From Hydrogenobacter sp. (lineage in GTDB: Bacteria; Aquificota; Aquificia; Aquificales; Aquificaceae), in the NCBI GenBank assembly GCA_028276405.1, contig JAPYWJ010000001.1:1-64000 (forward strand): DNA of 64,000 nucleotides. The letters run 5' to 3'. Position 1 is the first letter of the stretch. Each line of letters begins with the position of its first letter. This document shows positions 60,112 to 62,605 of this stretch, piece after piece. Below the pieces are notes generated by a model that did not search any database, was not told the origin of the DNA, and saw only the letters and a list, made by a program, of their open reading frames with translations. Made by a program: the position numbers and the translations under genes.

Positions 60112-62415
60112 TTATGCACTACAGCTTTCGCATTCCTCTATTTCCGTTAGGCTCTTGCTTCTGCAGTAATACACAGTTTTTAGTCCAAGCTCCCAAGCAA
60201 GCTCGTAAAGTCTTGAAAGCTTGGGTCCATCAACCTGCTCTGGGTCTATAAATAAATTTAGGCTCTGTGCTTGGTCGATCCACTTTTGTCTTTCTGCACC
60301 CGCTTTTATGACCCATTCCTGATCTATCAAATAAGCGGATTTGTAATGCCAGAAGTACTTATCTATTTCAGGTGGAACCTGCGGCAGTATGCCAGACATG
60401 TTTTCTTCCTTGTAATACTTGGCAAATATGGGGTCTATGGATGGTGTTGCTCCTATTATTAAAGAAGTAGAACCTGTAGGCATCAAAGCTAACAGATACC
60501 CGTTACGTATGCCGTACTTTTTAACTTCCTCCGCAAGCCCTATCCAGTCAAGATTATTCCCGTTTTGCTCAGAGAGTTTCTGGTTTTCTTCTGGGAGTCT
60601 GCCAAAGAACAGTCCCTTGCTCCAGTCCGATCCGTCAAAGAGGGGATATTTTCCTCTCTCTTTGGCAAGCTGGACTGAACCTTGACAAGCATAATAGGCT
60701 AATCTTTCAAAGAGAGCGTTTGCAAACCTAAGATGTTCTTCTGATTCCCAAGGAATGTTATTCTTCACAAGAGAGTAGTGGTAGTTGCTCACTCCTATGC
60801 CTATTGCCCTGTAGCGCTGATTGGTGTACTCTGCTTCTTTTATGGCGTAGTAATTTATTGAGATAACATTGTCTAACATGCGCACCAAAAGGGGTATAAC
60901 CCTTTCAAGGTCTTCTTTCTCATAGACTTTTCCAAGGTTTATAGAACCAAGATTGCAAACAACTACATCTCCAGACTTTTTCCTATGGGTGATCACTCCC
61001 GTCTGTGGGTCCAGGGAGTCTTCTATGTGCTCACTTGCAGACATGTTTTGGACTATTTCATGGCACAAATTGGAGGAATACACCATACCGCAATGTTTGT
61101 TGGGATTGAGCTTGTTGGCAGTGTCTCTGAAAAATATGTAAGGTTCACCCGTCTCAAAGATCACGGTAAGAAGTCTTTTCCAAAGCTCAAAGGCGGATAC
61201 TTCCTTCTTAGCAAAAGGTGGAAGTTCTTTCTCAAGCCTTTGATAAACTTTCTCAAACTCATCTCCGTAAAGGTCTTCAAGGTTTTTACCATCTTTGACA
61301 TTCTTGCAGTAGTAAGGATCAAAGAGGGTCCATGTTTTTTTCTCCTTTAGCCTTTTCATAAATAGGTCTGGTATGGATATGGCAGGGTGGATGTCGTGTG
61401 CTTTTTTCCTTTCATCACCTACATTAGTTTTTACCTCAAGAAACTCTAAAACATCCTTGTGCCATATGTCAAGGGTTATACTTGCAGAACCCTTTCTCAT
61501 TCCCAACTGATCCACATAAACCATGACATCGTTGAGAATTTTAACTACAGGAAGCACACCAGAGCTTGCACCTTTGAATTTCCTTATAGGAGAGCCTGTT
61601 GCCCTTATTTTGCCAAGGTATATACCCAGACCTCCAGCAAACTTGGATATCTGACCAGCTTTCTGCACATTGTCAAATATGTCGTAAAGGTCGTCATCGA
61701 CGGTTAAAACAAAGCAAGAAGAAAGCTGAGTATGAGACCTCCTTGCGTTCATAAGTGTAGGTGTTGCCAAAGAAACCTCATGTTTTGACATAAGATCGTA
61801 AAAAAGCTTTGCATACTTGAGCCTTTCTTCCTTTTTTTCTGGTATGGCAAGAGTCATAGCAATGAGCATGTACATTTCCTGCGGAAGCTCTATAACATTC
61901 CCATCCTCATCCCTTACTAAATACCTATCGTAGAGCACTTTTATACCAGTATAGTTAAAAAGCAGGTCCCTGTCTGGGTCCATGTAGCGCGCTAAAGTAT
62001 TAAAATCTTCCTTTGAGTACTCTTTAAGAAGATAGTCTCCGTAAATGCCTCTCTCTGTATAATTCCTAACAAGCTCAAAAAAGCTATCTGGGTTATAAGG
62101 CTTGTACTTTCCGTTTATCTTATCTTTTACCTTGTAGCCTCGCAAGTGTCCCACATCCTTATAAAGGTCGTAAAGAAGAAGTCTTGCAGCCACATACTGC
62201 CAATCAGGGCATTCTGGAGACACCTTTTCCGCAGCAGTCCTTATAAGAAGCTGTTGTATTTCCTTTGTGGTTATACCTTCACGGAACTGGATATGTGCGT
62301 CTGCTTCAAGCTCAAGAGGATCAACCCTCAAGCCTTTGCATGCAAAGTCTATAACTATGCGTATTTTGGATATGTCCATAGACTCTCTAAGTCCGTTCCT
62401 CTTTATTACATACAT
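60112..62415 (-). CDS. nrdA: Ribonucleoside-diphosphate reductase large subunit (class I)
   Basis: 767 residues: N-terminal ATP-cone (~1-95, [17 protein letters not shown]), then the catalytic barrel with LSSCFVL (redox Cys), [10 protein letters not shown] (Asn, Cys, Glu of the active site), the radical-path Tyr pair KTVYYC, and a C-terminal redox tail CESC. It reduces all four NDPs for DNA synthesis; the ATP-cone gives dATP feedback. An unusually long structured leader (62416-62571) precedes it; the local SD (AAAGGG) is weak and abuts a 9-bp hairpin. Confidence 0.96.
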
Positions 62416-62571
62416 AACTTTTCCCTTTCGTAGGCTACTGATAGCCTACGGCTGGAGTATTTATATCCCGCCTTTTTTTGAGCAACCATCCTCCAGCAGG
62501 CGGCACTTGGTTGCCCATAAGACCTTCCCCCAGATGAATGTTAATCTGATGGAATACTCAAGTCAAACTCT
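62416..62571 (-). ncRNA. Structured nrdA leader with pseudoknot and alternative pairing (candidate riboswitch)
   Basis: On the minus strand: a closing stem P1 (GAGTATT 62559-62553 with AATACTC 62461-62455); inside it a small hairpin (CAGAT/ATCTG, 62548-62531) and a 7-bp hairpin (GCAACCA/TGGTTGC, 62514-62482). In the loop of the latter, CCGCCT (62503-62498) pairs perfectly with AGGCGG (62473-62468), a pseudoknot. The adjacent loop segment GCTGGAG (62497-62491) can instead pair with CTCCAGC (62457-62451), which overlaps the P1 3' strand, so the two folds compete. A perfect 9-bp hairpin (62450-62429) ends one base before the weak SD region. I do not recognise a known class. Confidence 0.55.
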
Positions 62572-62577
62572 TGGAAG

Positions 62578-62605
62578 GTTATAGAGTAAAGCACAGATGA
62601 GCAAA
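62578..62605 (-). promoter_or_regulatory. Putative nrdA promoter
   Basis: TTTGCT (62605-62600), a 16-base spacer and TATAAC (62583-62578) on the minus strand predict a start near 62571, just upstream of the structured leader. Read-through from the upstream methyltransferase gene is also possible. Confidence 0.45.

Follow-up and report, generated by a model that had tools for sequence, protein, structure and literature searches.

Upstream of nrdA in the window (the whole 64,000-nt stretch of Hydrogenobacter DNA analysed here) lies a conserved RNA element with a core of about 70 nt. It has three helices, h, a and b, whose arms follow one another in the order h5 a5 b5 h3 a3 b3, and an optional, variable hairpin, P4. 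The predicted fold, in which the three helices cross one another mutually (ABCABC order), is in our judgement real, as read from the aligned sequences. Dozens of unrelated housekeeping genes of hot-spring Aquificaceae, some thirty of them in one genome, have the same element ahead of them, and the nrdA leader is one copy of what we read as a new, portable class of cis-acting RNA. What does such an element do? From its near-constant spacing to the start codon, the loss of strong Shine-Dalgarno (SD) sequences beside it, the diversity of its housekeeping targets and its use by mobile elements that split SDs, we infer an action on translation and a mechanism: we lean, by a modest degree, towards a leader that takes over from a strong SD in supporting the initiation of translation.

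The non-coding DNA 5' of nrdA is 219 nt long, and the gene upstream of it, which has the same orientation, resembles a 23S rRNA methyltransferase by its translation. The sequence-only reading had given nrdA a leader of about 156 nt. The nrdA promoter is kept with identical spacing among the leaders of the genus (Table 1), so that a leader of about 116 nt is predicted instead. The segment GGGGGAAGG, in the gap between promoter and helix h (within 62518-62531), recurs in the four nrdA leaders that have the element, those of genomes G000, G025, G027 and G028. The nrdA leader of G026 (L034) retains the promoter, the weak SD and a stretch resembling the 3' arm of P4, the rest of the element being gone; it looks like a natural deletion allele.

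Table 1. Features of the nrdA locus and its RNA element in the window, with module-bearing TnpB-family elements at other loci
Feature	Position	Strand	Remarks
nrdA, class I ribonucleotide reductase large subunit	60112..62415	(-)	PF02867, E 5.6e-170
-35 box TTGACT	62561..62566	(-)	TTGACN-17-TANNNT common to five of five nrdA leaders of the genus
-10 box TAACAT	62538..62543	(-)	17 nt from the -35 box in each of these five leaders
Predicted transcription start	near 62531	(-)	placed by the usual promoter spacing
GGGGGAAGGTCTTA	62518..62531	(-)	between predicted start and helix h
Whole h-a-b core	62449..62518	(-)	covariance model R1: 70.9 bits, E 7.6e-21; sole strong match in the window
h5 arm TGGGCAACCA	62508..62517	(-)	covaries with 62479-62488
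a5 arm CCGCCT	62498..62503	(-)	conserved 5 bp are CCGCC; pairs with 62468-62473
b5 arm GCTGGAG	62491..62497	(-)	pairs with 62451-62457
h3 arm TGGTTGCTCA	62479..62488	(-)	partner of h5, 62508-62517
a3 arm AGGCGG	62468..62473	(-)	pairs with a5
Conserved loop GATATAAATA	62458..62467	(-)	between a3 and b3; GRTAYAAATA nearly invariant
b3 arm CTCCAGC	62451..62457	(-)	pairs with b5
P4 hairpin CGTAGGCTATCAGTAGCCTACG	62429..62450	(-)	in most copies, with differing sequence; ends 13-17 nt ahead of the start codon
Weak ribosome-binding region AAAGGGAAAAGTT	62416..62428	(-)	-5.5 kcal/mol with the anti-SD
TnpB-family elements carrying the module	L073:3207-4757; L220:2639-4279; also L118, L152, L171		

The aligned copies give the consensus h5, AAATR, CCGCC, T, GCYGGGK, h3, an A-rich linker, GGCGG, GRTAYAAATA and MCCCRGC, followed usually by the variable hairpin P4, the weak SD and the start codon. 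Several parts of this architecture had been seen in the sequence-only reading. The pseudoknot helix CCGCCT/AGGCGG is helix a, and the hairpin next to the weak SD is P4. The pairing of GCTGGAG with CTCCAGC is also genuine, as helix b, but it is not the competitor that it had been taken for, since no base belongs to more than one of the helices h, a and b, and all three are conserved together. The proposed closing stem (CTGGGG with CTCCAG) is not retained ahead of the nrdA orthologues in G027 and G028, as read from the alignment, and the helices that are conserved are not mutually exclusive ones; nor did we find such helices blocking the SD or forming a terminator. Helix h, the most variable and the best supported of the three, had not been singled out.

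The main proof of the structure is covariation across copies, more than the stability of the nrdA leader fold, which exceeds that of shuffled sequence by z = -2.1. In 98.6% of 72 non-redundant copies the h arm and its own partner form a stem of at least 7 bp; with a partner taken from another copy the figure is 25%. Over 103 distinct aligned copies, which are related to one another and were aligned by a fit to h only, 98.1% of the cells in the three helices hold standard pairs, as against 83.0% in the shuffled and 32-48% in the slid control, and 262 cells carry double changes, against 69 after shuffling. Compensatory changes occur in all three helices: at every pair of h, at three pairs of b (the third being C-G in 49 copies, U-A in 47 and G-C in 7) and at the outer pair of a (C-G in 91, G-C in 12). 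Among nrdA orthologues three double changes fall within helix h (one C-G/U-A and two A-U/G-C), and the outer two pairs of helix b are lost in G027 and G028; the htpX orthologue leaders show many more compensatory changes. Because the helix sequences vary while pairing is kept, a protein-DNA operator is unlikely.

No Rfam 15 family lies above its gathering cut-off in the nrdA leader, and none appears even at E up to 10. With this absence, the model matches and the covariation, the proposal of a conserved, undescribed cis-acting RNA ahead of nrdA is supported. We found no description of the h-a-b motif in the literature, and the main-text passages and headings of a 26-genome riboswitch survey (PMC8632094), so far as they go, contain no such motif. 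The Aquificales non-coding RNA study (PMC4227106) dealt with A. aeolicus.

When the nrdA leader was used as a nucleotide query against 64 Aquificaceae genomes, only its positions of about 89-156 matched widely beyond nrdA, many times per genome. The covariance model finds the element in 46 of the 64, at 0-35 copies each, with one in the window, and a search of 84,980 species genomes for the exact pattern shows it to be almost confined to the family. Outside it, Thermodesulfobacterium hveragerdense has one copy and T. thermophilum two, and the single or double copies in other non-Aquificaceae metagenome-assembled genomes may be mis-binned contigs. An exact-pattern scan of viral contigs found no copy, and a phage origin was rejected on that ground. 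Numbers differ sharply among relatives: G050, G018 and G015 carry 35, 18 and 12 copies, and G052 and G001 none, though G050 (1,500,577 bp) and G052 (1,521,037 bp) belong to one genus. That close relatives do without any copy indicates that the element is not essential to translation. About eight of the G050 cores, of a GCGCC/GGCGC subtype, are nearly identical (among them L184, L187, L202, L203 and L204); their downstream genes differ and their P4 hairpins are quite different, which suggests that the core alone has recently spread or been homogenised.

The genes behind the element have no pathway in common. By Pfam, the G050 targets include Hfq (twice), S21, S20, S18, S11, L25, L32, RpoA, Rho, FtsH, thioredoxin, Ndk, GlyA, MetE, IlvC and ThiG, and also transaldolase, inorganic pyrophosphatase, oxidoreductase subunits and others. 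In other genomes translations point to htpX, mreB, ftsZ, fusA, infC, acpP, atpA, lon, rplU and hsp20. Only four of the 30 nrdA leaders examined have the element, most Aquificaceae nrdA genes being without it. The suggestion that a nucleotide-pool or cofactor riboswitch serves ribonucleotide reductase here is not supported by this distribution, as such unrelated targets argue against a nucleotide riboswitch specific to nrdA.

Copies lie both directly behind promoters and within operons, and in many a -10-like box is found about 5-8 nt ahead of h5, ending most often 5-6 nt ahead of it. The distance to the gene is nearly constant. In most copies the 3' end of P4 lies 13-17 nt from the start codon, though P4 itself varies from about 16 to 33 nt, where gene starts were in part chosen by script; the outliers are mostly doubtful starts or hairpins. 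In the fusA copies, which lack P4, 17 nt separate b3 from the ATG. The fold ends some 15 nt 5' of the start codon, with the SD outside it.

The SD is weak beside the element and strong where orthologues lack it, the pattern of a leader that substitutes for an SD. At orthologous junctions G052 has the upstream stop, AGGAGG and the ATG, whereas G050 has the upstream stop, the element, a weak SD and the ATG. In all 23 G050/G052 pairs the element-bearing orthologue has the weaker SD (mean -6.6 versus -11.2 kcal/mol, p 2.7e-5), and 30 element-free genes of the same stretches show no such weakening (-7.35 versus -5.53). For nrdA, the four leaders with the element have SDs of -5.5 to -6.9 kcal/mol, against a mean of -11.4 in the 26 without (p 8.7e-4).

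A second setting of the element is the transposon. Seventeen of the collected copies form the 3' end of a longer RNA of about 330 nt, which in several cases (L073, L118, L152, L169, L171 and L220) reaches into the 3' end of an ORF of the TnpB family (TIGR01765, E 3e-22; TIGR01766, E 3e-18). Omega-RNAs adjoin and overlap the 3' end of the TnpB ORF, and by position and family match the long form is a candidate TnpB omega-RNA with a putative guide function; against Rfam the long forms gave nothing above cut-off. The left ends of these elements follow directly upon GGAGG in independent insertions (AAGGAGG/TTAGCAACAG, GGGAGG/TTAGCAACAG, AAGGAGG/TTAAAAACAG, GGAGG/TAAAAACAG and others), and their right ends consist of P4-TAACCAGG, mostly a few nt ahead of an ATG. 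Insertion is apparently targeted to the SD. At one site occupied by a long copy in G028, the G027 orthologue has AAGGAGG 7 nt ahead of the ATG, the neighbourhoods differing at the left end. Long forms of about 330 nt consisting of RNA only, with no TnpB ORF, also stand ahead of start codons (L064, L083, L091, L130 and L222); they are candidate non-autonomous elements with an omega-RNA-like RNA.

It seems, however, that transposon and leader are separable. Most TnpB relatives lack the h-a-b module, and those without it, among them the majority of the G052 copies and one copy in G000, end differently; most copies of the element stand alone, without TnpB. No TnpB of the same lineage was matched in G050, G018 or G015 despite their many copies, and TnpB as a trans-acting binder of the leaders was rejected, its number not tracking theirs. 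Nor are the short copies merely truncated TnpB insertions: 117 of them have neither the left-end motif AACAGTTG within 40 nt upstream nor an excess of GGAGG there. Since TnpB number does not track leader number and the stand-alone copies bear no trace of a left end, the module looks like a separate leader, one that SD-inserting elements may have taken up.

How might such a leader support initiation? Its folded 3' end, some 15 nt ahead of the start codon, would lie where the mRNA exits from the initiating ribosome. The element may dock on or near the ribosome, or insulate the weak SD and the start region from RNA further upstream and so keep them open, or do both. A TnpB element that inserts after GGAGG with this RNA at its right end would leave the gene with the split SD still translatable. 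The fuller proposal, in which the ABCABC pseudoknot docks at the mRNA-exit side of the ribosome and replaces the SD, SD-targeting transposons carry it for neutral insertion, and hosts have adopted it at dozens of genes, we put forward only tentatively. Base pairing of the conserved loops with 16S rRNA was rejected as the means, as no convincing or strong complementarity was found. Against a part in initiation, one might say that insertion, and not functional substitution, could account for the weaker SD, and that the -10-like box ahead of h5 also fits a role at the mRNA 5' end, in stability. A stabiliser, at the 5' end or between cistrons, would shield the downstream message from decay, and the predicted start at h5 in many copies and the mostly housekeeping targets are in its favour. 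Stability, however, needs neither a fixed spacing of about 15 nt to the start codon nor the loss of the SD. RNase J is the usual 5'-3' exonuclease, and no match to an exonuclease of this type exceeds the cut-off in seven Aquificaceae genomes, a result that weakens the idea of an exonuclease barrier; we regard a stabiliser as improbable.

Two other explanations must be weighed against support of initiation. The compact pseudoknot could gate the weak SD as a riboswitch or other switch, on binding a protein or a general signal such as a nucleotide, a second messenger, a metal ion or temperature. An aptamer-like, covarying structure in an mRNA leader is present, with near-invariant loop nucleotides, an adjoining weak SD and a multi-gene regulon, and copy number declines to none in close relatives, which would fit the loss of a trans factor or of a need. 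Yet the targets have no metabolic theme, no conserved alternative helix hides the SD or forms a terminator, and one would hardly expect transposons to carry a ligand sensor immediately ahead of the genes that they split. We think such a switch unlikely. The short copies might instead have no host function and be the remaining right ends of TnpB-type elements once inserted after the SD. The same module does occur at TnpB right ends, copy number varies widely, and several G050 cores are nearly identical. Such a remnant would not be expected to maintain its pairing, as the compensatory changes among the leaders of nrdA and of htpX orthologues show the element to do, and the absence of left ends and of an excess of upstream GGAGG at the short copies, together with the lack of the module in most TnpB relatives and a TnpB number that does not track that of the leaders, makes this reading as doubtful as stabilisation.

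It is useful to set the element beside known systems. Like the H-type pseudoknot translational riboswitches SAM-II, SAM-V and preQ1, it is a small pseudoknotted 5'-leader RNA with an A-rich loop by the ribosome-binding site. Unlike them it has no known ligand, leaves the SD outside the fold, adds a third crossing helix, serves unrelated housekeeping genes and has no Rfam match. The cobalamin riboswitch, the comparison drawn in the sequence-only reading, likewise occurs in leaders of ribonucleotide reductase genes, but the nrdA leader matches neither it nor any other Rfam cis-regulatory class up to E 10. The likeness to TnpB omega-RNAs of the IS200/IS605 type, the long form adjoining and overlapping the 3' end of the ORF, is limited by the many TnpB relatives without h-a-b and the many h-a-b copies without TnpB. 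Group I introns in mobile elements show that a carried RNA can make an insertion neutral for the host gene (PMC3984707). IStrons and group I introns share with the present case a mobile element carrying an RNA that would neutralise its insertion, but the h-a-b RNA does not splice; it stays in the mRNA and would support its translation. Ribosomal-protein autoregulatory leaders, such as the alpha operon pseudoknot, likewise place a complex pseudoknot at the ribosome-binding site, though the h-a-b RNA is not confined to one operon or one ribosomal protein.

Even under another mechanism there is novelty in a covarying, unlisted class of RNA that serves many genes and whose three helices all cross one another. 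If support of initiation is the correct reading, dozens of bacterial housekeeping genes use a structured RNA instead of the SD, and by carrying that RNA a transposon family hits ribosome-binding sites without silencing the genes downstream, a neutral-insertion strategy distinct from that of introns. SD-independent initiation on structured bacterial leaders would then be opened to direct test, and the element would offer a portable leader part for engineering thermophiles.
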